Shown piece by piece: positions 17,329 through 23,928 of a stretch of DNA of 64,000 nt (position 1 is its first letter; the number at the start of each line of letters is the position of its first letter). Position numbers and translations under genes: made by a program. The notes under the pieces were generated by a model. It was not told where the DNA came from, did not search any database, and worked only from the letters and a program-made list of their open reading frames with translations. The stretch is from assembly GCF_003955715.1 (NCBI RefSeq), contig NZ_CP034463.1, forward strand, positions 1,984,001 through 2,048,000, in the 5' to 3' direction. The stretch comes from Streptomyces aquilus (lineage in GTDB: Bacteria; Actinomycetota; Actinomycetes; Streptomycetales; Streptomycetaceae).

Positions 17329-18660
17329 TCACACGTACCCCCGCCCCGGCCCGGGCCCCACCGCCGCCGCGATCGCCGCGGCCAGCGGCGCTGTCTCCGA
17401 CTCGGTCAGTCTCGCGATCGTGACGCGGATGCCGGGGGCCGCGTCCAGTCGGAAGCGGGCTCCGGGGGCCACCGCCCAGCCCGCGTGCAGGAGGCGGGAG
17501 ACCGCGCCCGTCTCGTCGGGGACCGGGATCCAGACGTTCAGGCCGCTGCGGCCGTGTGCGGGGACGCCGCGTTTCGCCAGTTCCGCGATCAGGGTGTCGC
17601 GGCGGGCGGCGTACGCGGCCGCCACCGCCTTCGGGTCGATCGCCCCCTCGGCCCACAGCCGGGCGACCGCCCCCTGCGTGATCCTGCTGACCCAGCCGGG
17701 CCCGAGACGCTGCCGCCCGCGCACCCGGTCGACGGTGACGGGATCGCCCGTGAACACGGCGAGCCGCAGGTCGGGGCCGTAGGCCTTGGCGGCCGAGCGG
17801 ACGAACGCCCAGCTGCGGGTGGTGCCGGCCAAGGGATGCAGGGGCAGGTCGACGATGCCGTGACCGTGGTCGTCCTCGATGAGGAGGGTGTCCGGGTGCT
17901 GCTTCAGCACGGCGCGCAGGGCACGCGCGCGTGCGGCGGTCACCGCGGCGCCGGTCGGGTTCTGAGCCCGGTCGGTGACGATCAGGGCGCGCGCACCCGA
18001 CCGCAGCGCCCGCCGGACGTCGTCCGGGAGCGGACCCTCGTCGTCCACCCCGACCGGAGCGGTACGCAGTCCGATGGCCGGGATCAGGTCCAGCAGGCTG
18101 CCCCAGCCCGGGTCCTCGACGGCGACCGTGTCGCCCGGCTTGAGGTGCGCCGCCAGGACGCGTTCGATCGCGTCGAGGGAGCCGGAGGCCACCGCGAGAG
18201 GCCCGTCCGGGACGCCGTCGGCGTCCAGCGCGGCGCGCGCGAGCCGGGCCAGCTCCGGGTCCATGGCCGCCTCCCCGTACATCACCGGTTCCCGGTCGTT
18301 GTGCCCGGCCGCCGCCGCGAACACTCCCGCCAGCGCGGGCAACAGCTCCGGGTCGGGGTTGCCGCTCGCCACGTCCCGTACGCCCTCCGGCACCTCCACC
18401 CGGATCGACTCCCGCGCGGTCGTGGCCGGCTTGGGCCGCACGCGGCTGCCCCGGCGCCCCGCGGTCTCGATCACCCCGCGCTCGCGCAGGACGCGGTACG
18501 CCGCCGCGACCGTGTTCGGGTTCACCCCGAGCTCGCCCGCCAACTCCCGCATGGGCGGCAGGAGTTGACCCGGCTCCAGATCACCGGCACCCACCGCGCG
18601 CTCGACGCTCGCCGCGATCTCGGCTGCGCCCCGCCCTTCGATCCGATATCCTCCTAGCAC
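17329..18660 (-). CDS. MocR-family GntR/aminotransferase regulator
   Basis: The 443-residue chimera has an N-terminal GntR winged helix (LPPMRELAGELGVNPNTVAAAYRVLRERG, residues about 34-62). A fold-type I aminotransferase domain follows. RSAAKAYGPDLRLAVF probably holds the PLP lysine and LIEDDHGHGIV the PLP-ring acid. MocR proteins such as PdxR and GabR sense PLP with an amine or amino acid. It is divergent from a PPOX-like gene, the usual partner of PdxR-like regulators in Actinobacteria. The GTG at 18660 lies seven bases after a CATAAT box, so no ribosome site is needed. Confidence 0.9.
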   Translation of the reverse strand: MLGGYRIEGRGAAEIAASVERAVGAGDLEPGQLLPPMRELAGELGVNPNTVAAAYRVLRERGVIETAGRRGSRVRPKPATTARESIRVEVPEGVRDVASGNPDPELLPALAGVFAAAAGHNDREPVMYGEAAMDPELARLARAALDADGVPDGPLAVASGSLDAIERVLAAHLKPGDTVAVEDPGWGSLLDLIPAIGLRTAPVGVDDEGPLPDDVRRALRSGARALIVTDRAQNPTGAAVTAARARALRAVLKQHPDTLLIEDDHGHGIVDLPLHPLAGTTRSWAFVRSAAKAYGPDLRLAVFTGDPVTVDRVRGRQRLGPGWVSRITQGAVARLWAEGAIDPKAVAAAYAARRDTLIAELAKRGVPAHGRSGLNVWIPVPDETGAVSRLLHAGWAVAPGARFRLDAAPGIRVTIARLTESETAPLAAAIAAAVGPGPGRGYV

Positions 18661-18735: not shown

Positions 18736-18747
18736 ATGGAGACCGCC

Positions 18748-19434
18748 ATGCAGGGGACCACGCAGCCGACGACACCACAGCCCGCCGCCTACCCGGCGAC
18801 CGACCGCACGGTGCCCACCCGCTCCGCGGACCGTGCCTCGTACGACAAGGACGTCGTGCACGCGATACTCGACGAGGCCTACGTCTGCCACCTCGGCTTC
18901 GTCCGCGACGGCGCCCCGGTCGTGCTGCCGACGCTCTTCGCCCGGGTCGGCTCACGCCTCTACGTCCACGGCTCGACCGGCTCGCGCCCGCTGCGGATGA
19001 CCGGCCAGGCCGACCCGGGTCTCCCGGTGTGCCTGACGGTCACGCACGTCGACGCGTTGATCCTGGCCCGCTCCGCCTTCCACCACTCGATCAACTACCG
19101 GTCCGTGGTGGTGCACGGCACCGCGTACGACGTGACGGACCCGGAGGAGAAGCGCCTCGCCCTGGACGCGCTCGTCGACCACGTCGTGGCGGGCCGGTCC
19201 AAGGACTCGCGGCCCGCCAACAAGAAGGAGCTGGCCGCCACCGCCGTCATCCGCCTCGACCTGGACGAGGTCTCCGCGAAGATGCGCACCGGCGGGGTGA
19301 ACGACGAGCCCGAGGACCTCGCCCTCCCCCACTGGGCCGGTGTCGTCCCGCTGCGCAAGGGCTACGACACCCCGGTCGGCGACCCCGACCTGGCTCCCGG
19401 CACCGGCCTCCCCGACTACCTCGCGGCCCTGTGA
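18748..19434 (+). CDS. Pyridoxamine 5'-phosphate oxidase-related flavin-binding protein
   Basis: The 228-residue split-barrel flavoprotein of the nitroreductase/FMN-binding PPOX group opens with YDKDVVHAILDEAYVCHLGFV. The later core LYVHGSTGSRPLRMTGQADPGLPVCLTVTHVDALILARSAFHHSINYRSV-type sequence contains the FMN-phosphate and dimer-contact segments. The ATG at 18748 is chosen because GGAG lies six bases upstream. An ATG at 18736 has no ribosome site. It is divergent from the MocR regulator and overlaps the following PaiB-like gene by one base (TGATG). A role in vitamin B6 or flavin redox balance is likely but unproven. Confidence 0.85.
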   Translation: MQGTTQPTTPQPAAYPATDRTVPTRSADRASYDKDVVHAILDEAYVCHLGFVRDGAPVVLPTLFARVGSRLYVHGSTGSRPLRMTGQADPGLPVCLTVTHVDALILARSAFHHSINYRSVVVHGTAYDVTDPEEKRLALDALVDHVVAGRSKDSRPANKKELAATAVIRLDLDEVSAKMRTGGVNDEPEDLALPHWAGVVPLRKGYDTPVGDPDLAPGTGLPDYLAAL

Positions 19435-20070: not shown

Positions 20071-21024
20071 CTACACCGGTACGGGCTCGCCGCGCCGCAC
20101 GGCGCGGGTCTCGGCCACCGCGAGCCCGGTGACCGACCCCAGCATCAGGAAGGTGCCGAGAAGGGTGGGCGCCGTCAGGTGCTCACCGAGCAGGGTCACG
20201 GCGAGCACCGCCGCGCTGACCGGCTCCAGCAGCATGATCACGGACACCGTCGCCGACCGTACGGCCGCCGCGCCCGCGAAGTACAGGGCGTAGGCGAGGG
20301 CCGTGGGGACGGCGGCGAGGTAGGCCAACAGCCAGAGCAGCAGGCCCGGTTCGACGGTGTGCGGGACCAGTCCCTCGGCCAGCGCGAACGGCAGCAGCAG
20401 CGCGCTGGTGACGGCGAACACCCCGACGGACGTGGCGGCCGCGTCCGCCTCGCCGTCACGGCCCCAGCGGCGGGTGAGCAGGGTCATCGCGGACCCCCCG
20501 GCCGCCGAGGCCAGTCCGCACAGCACACCCCAGGGCCGTACGGCGGAACCCCCGCCCCCGAGGGTCAGCACGCCGAGCCCGGCGAGCGCCCCGACGACGG
20601 CGACCGTGCCACCGCGCCCGAGCCGCTCCCGCAGCGTGAGCCGGGCGCCGAGCGCGACGAGGACGGGCCCGGCGCCGAGCGTGACGACGGTGGCCACGGC
20701 GAGTCCGGTGGAGCGTACGGCCGCGAAGTAGCCGGTCTGGAACACGGCGAGCCCGAGGCCCGTGACCCCCGCCCGCCACACCGTGCGGCCCAGCGGTCCG
20801 CGCGCGGCGGTACGGGTCCGGGGGCGCAGCAGGCGTACGGCGGCCAGCAGCACGAGCCCGGACGCGCAGCGCCAGAAGGACAGGGCGACGGGCCCCAGAT
20901 CGCTGACCCCGTAGGCCAGCGCGGCGACCGCGCCCGCGGTGCCCCAGGCGACACCGGCGATGATCAGATAGAGCAGGCCTCGCCCGACGGGCAGGCCGGA
21001 AGAAGCAGCAGAAGCATTCGACAC
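20071..21024 (-). CDS. EamA-family transporter under a leader-peptide attenuator
   Basis: The 317-residue DMT exporter has ten membrane segments, with the first repeat starting [43 protein letters not shown] sequence. The second repeat shows [21 protein letters not shown]. The GTG at 21024 has GGAG seven bases upstream, and that ribosome site lies against a stem described separately. The 160-base leader contains a 12-codon frame and alternative hairpins, so expression is probably controlled by ribosome stalling. The substrate may be the amino acid or inhibitor sensed there. A second EamA gene lies directly upstream on the same strand. Confidence 0.85.
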
Positions 21025-21033
21025 TTGTCGTCT

Positions 21034-21146
21034 CCGCAGACATGGAGAAGCGGGGAACCCGGCTCAGCGGGGTCCGTGGACTTCGTCTGCGGGCAGCACC
21101 GTTCCGCCCCGCGGGCGGCAGGGCGGGAATGACCGGAGGGCCCGCC
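21034..21146 (-). promoter_or_regulatory. Attenuator-like RNA leader with SD-sequestering stem
   Basis: On the lower strand CCGCC at the end of the leader frame (21150-21154) can pair with GGCGG just after its stop (21142-21146). The same GGCGGG can instead pair with CCCGCC downstream (21122-21127). Farther on, CCGCAGAC (21083-21090) is complementary to GTCTGCGG (21034-21041), the latter abutting the GGAG of the EamA gene. These are mutually exclusive or masking structures of the attenuator kind. Folding was done by eye. Confidence 0.5.
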
Positions 21147-21185
21147 TCAGGCGGCCGGCGGTGCGATGACGTAGTGCGTGTGCAT
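21147..21185 (-). CDS. Putative 12-residue leader peptide MHTHYVIAPPAA
   Basis: ATG at 21185 opens a 12-codon frame ending in TGA at 21147, 123 bases before the EamA start. It has no ribosome site. The upstream TAGGCT box ends seven bases before the ATG, as expected for a leaderless RNA. The peptide has two histidines, a tyrosine and a Pro-Pro pair near its end, features that can slow ribosomes. The last codons form one arm of an alternative hairpin. It is too short for ordinary gene finding. Confidence 0.5.
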   Translation of the reverse strand: MHTHYVIAPPAA

Positions 21186-21192
21186 GATCGGC

Positions 21193-21222
21193 AGCCTAGG
21201 CAGCCGTCGAGCGGCGGGACAA
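21193..21222 (-). promoter_or_regulatory. Promoter for the EamA leader
   Basis: Lower-strand TTGTCC (21217-21222), an 18-base spacer and TAGGCT (21193-21198) sit over the 3' end of the upstream EamA gene. They predict a transcript starting at about 21185-21186, the A of the leader-peptide ATG. Confidence 0.5.
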
Positions 21223-22200
21223 CTCCCTTTCCGGCCCGCCGCTCGCCACCGGGTCCGGGGACGGCTTGACCGGGGTCGAGGACTGCGCGATGAAGGCACC
21301 GAGCAGGACGATCACGCCGCCGAGGATCTGCGGGGCGGACAGGTGCTCGCCGAGCAGGACCCAGGCCAGCACGGTCGCGACCACCGCTTCCAGACAGGCG
21401 ACGACCGTGGCGACCTGCGGGGAGAGCCGGCGCACGGAGACCACGCCGGTGACGTAGGCGACGACCGTGGCGACGAGCACGATCCAGGACAGCAGCAGGG
21501 CGGCCGCGACGGAGGTGCCGTTCATGTCCGCGGTGCCGCCGAGCACGGACCAGTCCATCGACCACGGGCGGGCGACGACGGTGAGGACGGCGGCGCCGAC
21601 CAGGAGGCCGTACGCGATGACGCCCAGCGGGTCGGGAGTGTCGGCGCCGGAGTCGGTGCCCTGGTCGGACAGGACGAAGTAGCCGACCTGGCAGCAGGCC
21701 GCGCCCAGCGCGAGCAGCAGGCCGACCGCGTCGATGCTCAGCCCCGACCAGACCTCGACGACACAGGCGAGGCCGCCGACGGCGAGGACCACGCCGACCG
21801 CGGCGGCACGCGTGACCGGCCGCCGCTGCACGAACCGCACCCAGCCGAGCACGAGGGCGGGTGCGAGGTACTCGATGAGCAGCGCGACTCCCACCGGCAG
21901 CCGGGAGATCGAGGCGAAGTAGAACGCCTGCACCCCGGCCACGCCGAGCAGTCCGAACCCGGCGAGCAGGGCGGGGCGGCGGCGCAGCAGCGCCCGGTGG
22001 CGCACGGCGAGCGGCAGCATCACCAGGGCCGCGCCGGCCACCCGGAGCCACACCACGTGGAGCGGGTCGAGGCCCGCCTCGATCAGCGGCTTGGCCGCGA
22101 CACCGGAACCTCCGAAGGCGACCGCCGACGCGAGGGCGAGCCCGAGCCCGACCCCTCGGCCGCGGTGACCGGCACTGCTGTCAATCGTCTGCACCGGCAC
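21196..22200 (-). CDS. EamA-family transporter
   Basis: The DMT exporter has about 334 residues and ten membrane segments. The first begins GLGLALASAVAFGGSGVAAKPLIEAGLDPLHVVWLR-like sequence and the second repeat shows LLLALGAACCQVGYFVLSDQG. The C-terminal tail is hydrophilic (TPVKPSPDPVASGGPERE). The GTG at 22200 is taken as start, and 22194 is equally possible. Neither has a clear ribosome site. The family is probably shared with the downstream EamA gene, but the two are only distantly alike. The substrate is unknown. Confidence 0.8.
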   Translation of the reverse strand: MPVQTIDSSAGHRGRGVGLGLALASAVAFGGSGVAAKPLIEAGLDPLHVVWLRVAGAALVMLPLAVRHRALLRRRPALLAGFGLLGVAGVQAFYFASISRLPVGVALLIEYLAPALVLGWVRFVQRRPVTRAAAVGVVLAVGGLACVVEVWSGLSIDAVGLLLALGAACCQVGYFVLSDQGTDSGADTPDPLGVIAYGLLVGAAVLTVVARPWSMDWSVLGGTADMNGTSVAAALLLSWIVLVATVVAYVTGVVSVRRLSPQVATVVACLEAVVATVLAWVLLGEHLSAPQILGGVIVLLGAFIAQSSTPVKPSPDPVASGGPERELSRRSTAA

Positions 22201-22407
22201 ATGATGACAGGCGATGACATGACCGTCACCCCCGTTGACACCTGTCTCAACGGTTGGACGAGGCAGACGGCTCCGAGCGGTGACAGTCCGGCGTGCGGGT
22301 GTCCGGGGCGGCGGCCGTCTTACGCGGGCCTGTCGGGACCGGCGGCTCCTGGCCTGCGACTGTCCGGGCCAGTGCCTGCCTGGCGTGCGGCGGTCCGGCA
22401 TGCAGCT

Positions 22408-23499: not shown

Positions 23500-23928
23500 A
23501 TGGCCGAAGTCAGCGCGGAGGCACGGATCGAGGCGCCGGCCGAGAAGGTGTGGGGCCGGCTCACGGACTGGTCGTCGTACGGAGAGTGGAACGCCACCCA
23601 CACCAGCTTCCCCGAGGGCGGCCCGAAGAGCCTCGAAGTGGGCGGGACGTACCAGGAGAACATGAAGTTGATGGGCTTCCCGGCCGAGGTCGAGTGGACC
23701 ATCGACGAGTTGGAACCGGCCCGGGTGTTCGCCACGAAGGGCAAGGGGCCGATGGCGGTGAGCCTGGTCAACCGCTACACGCTCGTCCCGGACGGCGAGG
23801 CCACGACGGTCCGGATCGACAGTGAGTTCACGGGCGCGGCGGTGTCCCTGATGGCGGGCAAGCTCAAGGACTCGGCGACGGCCGCGCTGAACGAGTCGCT
23901 GCGGAAGCTGGCGGGACTGGTGGCCTGA
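23500..23928 (+). CDS. SRPBCC (START/Bet v1-like) family protein
   Basis: The 142-residue helix-grip protein opens MAEVSAEARIEAPAEKVWGRLTDWSSYGEWN, the hallmark first strand and helix of the SRPBCC fold. It ends in the long C-terminal helix KLKDSATAALNESLRKLAGL. The fold encloses a hydrophobic cavity. Members include polyketide cyclases and lipid-binding proteins, many without assigned ligands. AGGGGTGGTCGC supplies the ribosome site. The gene is single, convergent with the padR gene, with a strong hairpin between them. Confidence 0.8.
   Translation: MAEVSAEARIEAPAEKVWGRLTDWSSYGEWNATHTSFPEGGPKSLEVGGTYQENMKLMGFPAEVEWTIDELEPARVFATKGKGPMAVSLVNRYTLVPDGEATTVRIDSEFTGAAVSLMAGKLKDSATAALNESLRKLAGLVA

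Follow-up and report, generated by a model that had tools for sequence, protein, structure and literature searches.

Ribosome-mediated attenuation itself is classical. Attenuators of the trp, his and ilv type, including the leaderless trpL, leuL and ilvL of actinomycetes, share with the leader described here a short ORF at a leaderless start, which is predicted in our case, and RNA segments with exclusive pairings among which the position of the ribosome chooses, which is modelled in our case. The present leader differs from them in its Pro-Pro(-Pro) run, in the exporter gene that follows without a matching biosynthesis gene, and in an output that looks translational in the clade of the locus studied.

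By analogy, the nearest tested precedent is mgtL of Salmonella, where a short ORF containing Pro codons precedes a transporter gene and loss of EF-P raises mgtA mRNA through these codons, as described in the available part of that report (PMC6460261). In the same part, the prolines of mgtL alternate, its ORF is internal to a 264-base leader and the Mg2+ transporter is controlled by transcription elongation, whereas here the prolines are adjacent and the gene is of the EamA/DMT type (PMC6460261); no sequence relation was seen between mgtL and this leader. The leaders of the ABCF genes are5sc and tiaA likewise attenuate through a uORF in Streptomyces but, in the excerpted account, stall at the start codon with named antibiotics (PMC12421871), unlike the present leader, in which C-terminal prolines are the conserved site.

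The RAPP-type arrest peptides of actinobacteria, ApdA and ApcA, have Pro-Pro near the arrest site in common with our leader peptides. They are much longer than the 10–16 residues found here. Both an R-A-P-x or R-G-P-x motif and an N-terminal localization signal are found in ApdA and ApcA, which are encoded ahead of secDF2 or yidC2, according to the portion of the source consulted (PMC10987492); neither RAP nor RGP occurs in any of our 149 distinct leader ORFs.

We found no description of this leader in the open-licence literature searched, and five fragments of leader peptides had no match in the open-licence papers searched. An exporter leader is not among the eight leader peptides listed for S. 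lividans from RNA-seq annotation in the available text of PMC8079986, and the available text of a 2005 survey of actinobacterial elements is without proline, exporter or transporter (PMC1262725). The interest of the leader lies in how widely it occurs, in the unusual motif predicted for stalling and in the connection with an exporter that is uncharacterised.

A short proline-ending ORF upstream of an EamA exporter

The locus lies on the minus strand of a 64,000-nucleotide stretch of DNA, the whole of which we call the window, between two EamA/DMT transporter genes at 21196–22179 and 20071–21024, both matched by Pfam PF00892. The latter (E 1.3e-25; GTG start at 21024) is the proposed regulated gene, and its match to TIGR00950 (E 5.2e-31) is below the curated cut-off of that model. 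Read in the sequence, a −35 element TTGTCC (21217–21222) is followed after an 18-base spacer by a −10 element TAGGCT (21193–21198), the TAG of which doubles as the stop codon of the upstream EamA gene. Seven bases past the −10 lies the ATG (21185) of a predicted leaderless ORF of 12 codons, MHTHYVIAPPAA (21147–21185), ending in TGA at 21149–21147; from this ORF to the exporter GTG the RNA spans about 120 bases. A sequence-only reading of the locus had proposed a leader-peptide attenuator, and all elements that it named were found in place on the minus strand.

Several further features were observed in the surroundings. The tandem with a second EamA gene directly upstream recurs in Streptomyces relatives, and elsewhere the leader occurs without the tandem. 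An inverted repeat, CCGTTGACACCTGTCTCAACGG (plus strand, 22232–22253), lies upstream of EamA gene 21196–22179 and is possibly an operator. The exporter pair is adjoined by a MocR-like regulator gene (17329–18660, minus strand; GntR plus aminotransferase, with PtsJ the best NCBIfam match, below cut-off) and a gene for a Pyridox_ox_2 protein (18736–19434, plus strand). A Polyketide_cyc2-type protein encoded at 23500–23928 (plus strand) exceeds the NCBIfam threshold of the Rv0910 family toxin (145.3 versus 100 bits), and a glycine riboswitch, RF00504 (53761–53857, minus strand; 65.7 bits), is the only Rfam match in the window.

The exporter was searched for in 101 genomes, with the genus taken as Streptomyces from the nearest named proteins. 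This yielded 79 Streptomyces orthologues at 52% identity or more, the window's copy included, and their upstream DNA was oriented and scanned for ORFs that start with ATG or GTG 5–9 bases after TANNNT, have 7–16 codons and end in Pro-Pro plus 1–3 residues. Such an ORF lies upstream of 79 of 79 orthologues; the same scan gave 0 of 79 for the reverse strand and 1 of 3,160 for dinucleotide-shuffled sequences. By these sequence counts, the leader ORF upstream of the Streptomyces exporter is more than chance. The distance from −10 to start codon is 7 bases in 65 orthologues, 6 in 8 and 8 in 6, a spacing that is the geometry predicted for a leaderless start, and its presence in all 79 supports the claim that a leaderless-type leader peptide precedes the exporter. 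TTG stands at an 18-base spacing from the −10 in 57 of the 79, and the other 22 have no TTG at 16–19 bases. A strict DNA pattern matched 33 of the 101 genomes, once each, with 31 of the 33 sites directly upstream of the exporter; its reversed control had no match in the 101 genomes.

Beyond Streptomyces, an order-level search (147 genomes) found orthologues almost only in that genus, and a class-level search (197 genomes) found exporter relatives in other families. For the class-level loci, and for a further family, f21, Pro-Pro near the ORF end was required and a −10 element was not. The leader was present in 13 of 15 non-Streptomyces class-level loci (38–61% identity), the two without it being L168 and L169; L171 has no clear −10, and L160 was counted as leader-bearing because a short ORF and a covariance-model match precede its apparent true start. 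In f21 the leader was found at 14 of 17 loci (all except L257, L267 and L269), with peptides such as MHRLFPVTPPPAL.

Among loci of named genomes, 72 of 80 carry the leader (36 of 40 in Streptomyces and 36 of 40 in others). With Streptomyces counted, they span 15 genera, the others being Streptosporangium, Acrocarpospora, Planobispora, Planomonospora, Sphaerisporangium, Nonomuraea, Planotetraspora, Micromonospora, Virgisporangium, Kitasatospora, Actinocorallia, Microbispora, Streptantibioticus and Glycomyces. The eight loci without it are L190, L241 and L250; the Marinomonas relatives L195 and L201; L212, where the ORF is lost and the segment after the stop and the remainder are retained; L228, where an apparent natural deletion has taken out the entire leader and fused the upstream EamA gene, at its end, to the exporter; and L235, which is truncated by a contig end and was counted as lacking the leader. 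A Pro-rich short ORF also precedes two of nine distant EamA paralogues that were meant as controls, which makes this set an imperfect control and counts against the attenuator model. At one of these, L112, the ORF ends ..ITCPPPRS, with AGCGGGG at the stop and CCCCGCT downstream in the same arrangement of segments 1, 2 and 3 as is described below; at the other, L119, it reads MPTYWNRVTPPPFAR.

The 171 leaders used for peptide statistics collapse to 149 distinct ORF sequences and 108 distinct peptides, typified by MHSTALVLPPPAA, MTPFIVSPPPAR and MQLFLTPPPPAA. Nine of 108 Streptomyces upstream regions were omitted from these statistics and from the ribosome-footprint folding: four have GTG starts and do carry the leader, and in five the exporter start was missed or misplaced. 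Counted back from the stop, all 149 distinct ORFs have Pro at codon −4, 140 have Pro at codon −3, 134 have Pro at codon −5 and 136 have Ala at codon −2; a Pro-Pro near the ORF end was part of the detection filter, but the fixed position −4 was not. The third base of this invariant Pro codon is free (CCT 62, CCG 57, CCC 28 and CCA 2), a pattern from which the leader is judged to be under constraint at the level of the peptide. The proline run has three residues in 121 ORFs, two in 19 and four in 9, and is preceded by L in 99, S in 39, T in 8 and A in 3. Positions −6 to −8 are mostly hydrophobic, and ahead of the residue that precedes the run V, L, I or T predominate.

In 87 distinct Streptomyces leader ORFs, rare codons show strong enrichment relative to the exporter genes of 28 of these species. 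CCT makes up 74 of 287 Pro codons (0.258) in the leaders versus 10 of 360 (0.028) in the exporter genes, CTT 60 of 152 (0.395) versus 26 of 1,434 (0.018), and GTT 40 of 99 (0.404) versus 12 of 1,046 (0.011). The window's own ORF contains none of the three, and it has Ala-Pro-Pro where Pro-Pro-Pro is found in 130 of 149. The sequence-only reading had offered either His/Tyr or the Pro-Pro pair as the sensing site. His occurs in 62 and Tyr in 5 of the 149 distinct ORFs; neither is conserved, so a His/Tyr sensor is rejected, and the invariant Pro at −4 favours the Pro-Pro codons (21156–21161) as the predicted stall site.

RNA segments and their covariation

Downstream of the prolines the RNA can be divided into four trp-like segments. 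Segment 1 consists of the Pro/Ala codons (21150–21158) and pairs across the stop codon with segment 2, GGCGGGC, which is immediately 3′ of the stop (21140–21146) and is evident both here and in relatives. The 1:2 pairing appears in the window's minimum-free-energy fold (21154–21150 with 21142–21146) and as helix 1 of relatives. Segment 3, GCTGCCCGC (21089–21097), usually lies 45–75 bases past segment 2 and can pair either with it (GCGGGC:GCCCGC) or with segment 4, which precedes the exporter. Between segments 2 and 3, the computed fold places a local hairpin (21104–21126), the counterpart of a covarying helix 2 in relatives. Segment 4, GTCTGCGG (21034–21041), pairs with CCGCAGAC (21085–21092) and overlaps the Shine-Dalgarno GGAG of the exporter gene (21032–21035), covering its GG.

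The mutually exclusive pairings 1:2, 2:3 and 3:4 are thus present by sequence in relatives and in the window, and are energetically weak in the window's copy. The competing hairpins that had been proposed stand in this form, with covarying helices in relatives, but not with CCCGCC (21127–21122) as the alternative partner of GGCGG(G): in the computed fold that motif lies in the local hairpin (21126–21118 with 21112–21104), and the partner of segment 2 retained in relatives is GCTGCCCGC, here at 21097–21089. Sequestration of the exporter's Shine-Dalgarno sequence, also proposed before, is borne out in the predicted pairing of GTCTGCGG with CCGCAGAC. Within the clade to which the window belongs, the downstream partner of segment 3 is GTCTGCGG, the Shine-Dalgarno GG included. 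A segment 3 was recognised in 92 leaders, and in 65 of them segment 4 contains the Shine-Dalgarno GG; the first two 3:4 base pairs form in 65 of these 65, and the fifth is AU in 47, GC in 10, GU in 4 and broken in 4.

Streptosporangiaceae leaders have GCCGCCCGC as segment 1, GCGGGCGGC as segment 2 and GCTGCCCGC as segment 3, which makes 1:2 and 2:3 nearly interchangeable. Family membership was checked for Nonomuraea and Planotetraspora; the other genera with leaders of this type are ones that we take to belong to the Streptosporangiaceae. In 28 of these leaders, three helices (1:2, the spacer hairpin and a hairpin P3 around segment 3) have 93.9% of cells occupied by standard pairs. Both sides are changed in 25 cells, as against 6.8 (s.d. 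3.1) with shuffled partners and no more than 7 with slid ones. RNAalifold, unprompted, recovered most pairs of the same three helices, as well as a short helix between the leader ORF and the Shine-Dalgarno sequence. The 2:3 pairing forms in 96.4% of cells, with almost no covariation of its own because segments 2 and 3 are nearly invariant.

Pairing tests that compared own with swapped partners gave different results for the 29 Streptosporangiaceae-type leaders and the other 140. Pairing of a pyrimidine run after segment 2 with the Shine-Dalgarno sequence had p 0.048 in the 29, of which 27 were better than shuffled, and was unsupported in the 140 (p 0.29); hairpin P3 was supported in the 29 (p 6.6e-5) and unsupported in the 140 (p 0.95). 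For pairing of segment 3 with downstream sequence the reverse was found, with p 0.004 in the 140 and no support in the 29 (p 0.85). A covariance model built from the 28 Streptosporangiaceae leaders detected 15 of 37 Streptomyces leaders at E 0.01 or better (for example L026, 6.7e-11; L100, 1.3e-7; L106, 9.6e-7), and had one chance-level match (E 1.5) in the nine paralogue controls. It missed 22 of the 37 at E 0.01 and the window's own leader at E 10; the window's copy is divergent. Conservation of the peptide and stems in relatives, set beforehand as the test of an attenuator, was found, with leader ORFs in 79 of 79 orthologues, leaders at 72 of 80 named loci, and covarying helices.

In f21 (L253–L268), the leader is followed by a strong hairpin, the arms of which vary but remain complementary and which often ends in CTTCTTCG. 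At most f21 loci, GTCCCGCTCCCGCG also follows the leader and can pair with the segment after the stop.

Computed effect of ribosome position

A 28-base ribosome footprint was placed at successive positions along each leader and pair probabilities were computed; one of the 171 leaders had no recognisable segment 3 in this folding. Across 99 Streptomyces leaders, mean P(2:3) was 0.12 in the free RNA, rose to 0.51 when the front edge reached the last base of the stop (edge 0) and was 0.04 six bases further. From free RNA to the front edge at the stop, mean P(1:2) fell from 0.70 to 0.00 and mean P(3:4) from 0.48 to 0.26. By toeprint geometry, the front edge of a ribosome lies about 15 bases ahead of the P codon. 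If this distance applies, a front edge at the stop would correspond to a P site on the Pro pair, and in the model the 2:3 optimum is at the ribosome position expected for a Pro-Pro stall.

These pair probabilities are given as read-outs too because mean accessibility of the Shine-Dalgarno sequence changes little, from 0.18 in the free RNA to 0.27 at edge 0. With the ribosome there, P(2:3) increases in 75 of 99 Streptomyces leaders but in only 30 of 71 others. In the window's own RNA it reaches only 0.18, and modelled switching is weak in this copy. The unpaired probability of its exporter start codon increases from 0.00 to about 0.65, but this is already seen with the ribosome further upstream. 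Equilibrium folding of this kind takes no account of the order of transcription, in which segment 2 meets segment 3 before segment 4 has been made.

Proposed mechanism and alternatives

Taken together, we consider it likely that the system is a ribosome-mediated attenuator built around a polyproline leader peptide, with stalling as the proposed switch; judged from sequence, its parts and their order match the trp type. Of the original attenuator reading, the leader peptide, the hairpins, the Shine-Dalgarno sequestration and the Pro-Pro pair survive, His/Tyr and CCCGCC do not, and the 2:3 switch of the window's own copy is weak. Transcription probably starts at the A of the leader ATG, and ribosomes would therefore load on the 5′ end without a Shine-Dalgarno sequence. 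When passage over Pro-Pro(-Pro) is smooth, the ribosome would terminate and leave, 1:2 and 3:4 would form, and the exporter's ribosome-binding site would be closed, in the window's clade by lying inside 3:4; in Streptosporangiaceae it is probably hairpin P3, jointly with the pyrimidine run that follows segment 2, that closes the site. A ribosome hesitating on the prolines would have its front edge at the stop codon and cover segment 1, leaving segment 2 free to capture segment 3, so that 3:4 would be prevented and the exporter gene opened. Stalling would then be the ON signal, and its candidate triggers are too little EF-P activity, too little Pro-tRNA or an inhibitor that slows the formation of Pro-Pro bonds.

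In E. coli, PPP stalls ribosomes unless EF-P helps and the preceding residue tunes the stalling, with less of it after C, T, L, G or S, and APP is reported to stall, according to the consulted portion of PMC4176338. The L, S and T that precede the proline run in our leaders are thus weaker stallers in E. coli by that account (PMC4176338), which we count against the attenuator model. Weak contexts combined with rare codons would suit a leader over which ribosomes pass in normal cells but stall under stress.

We infer that the output is translational rather than transcriptional. The opposite, in which 3:4 or the hairpins act as a terminator, possibly Rho-assisted, instead of hiding the ribosome-binding site, is possible but somewhat improbable. 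Output in f21 may be transcriptional, given the strong hairpin downstream of segment 2 that is often followed by CTTCTTCG, and several Streptomyces leaders are without U-tracts in the available text of PMC8079986. Against termination, no terminator-like site (a G+C-rich hairpin followed by a U-run) was found at 20500–21800, and segment 4 holds the Shine-Dalgarno GG with its first two pairs intact in the 65 leaders described above.

Two further alternatives concern the signal. A classical amino-acid attenuator would keep the same RNA logic with a narrower signal, sensing the supply of charged Pro-tRNA only, and place the exporter in a proline or general amino-acid response. The run of 2–4 Pro codons near the stop of every one of the 149 distinct ORFs, the rare CCT used in many Streptomyces copies, and the response to Pro-tRNA levels attributed to mgtL in the available part of PMC6460261 are all in line with it. 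Yet the runs are short, what is retained is two adjacent prolines at a fixed place and not a high number, and no proline gene follows. Among 20 neighbouring proteins at 12 non-Streptomyces loci, moreover, no partner was common across genera except MFS transporters at two, and the leader and exporter therefore look like a stand-alone unit; we regard this alternative as unlikely.

That stand-alone unit, in which a drug- or metabolite-type exporter stays with the leader while the neighbours change, is what would be expected of a leader induced by an inhibitor, as with erm, cml or ABCF genes, where a ribosome-targeting compound or proline analogue would stall the ribosome at the Pro pair and induce the pump that exports it. 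The mostly hydrophobic residues at −6 to −8 are also kept, as a sensor of peptide context would need, and uORF attenuation of antibiotic-resistance genes occurs in Streptomyces (PMC12421871, in the part available). However, the TIGR00950 and Pfam matches name no substrate and no solved structure matched the exporter family profile at E 0.01, and we give this alternative a rather low probability. A metabolite-binding riboswitch or protein site with an incidental short ORF, for which the high conservation of RNA blocks such as GCTGCCCGC might speak, is very improbable and already disfavoured by a peptide that is conserved with free wobble bases, rare codons in frame, the Pro at −4 in 149 of 149 distinct ORFs and the lack of an Rfam match at gathering score for the window's leader and seven leader loci.

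For the attenuator that we favour, the peptide pattern and the position of the −10, and in some clades the covariance model too, make the leader annotatable. It also offers a handle on an uncharacterised exporter, as the inducer of the leader would strongly suggest what the pump transports or gives protection from. More speculatively, and with low confidence, the leader may serve as an actinomycete-wide alarm valve that gauges Pro-Pro bond formation, the exporter removing a small molecule that slows this step; that molecule would be a proline analogue or peptidyl-transferase inhibitor produced either by the cell itself or by neighbours. If so, the ribosome would be both target and sensor, and the class of substrate could be read from the leader.
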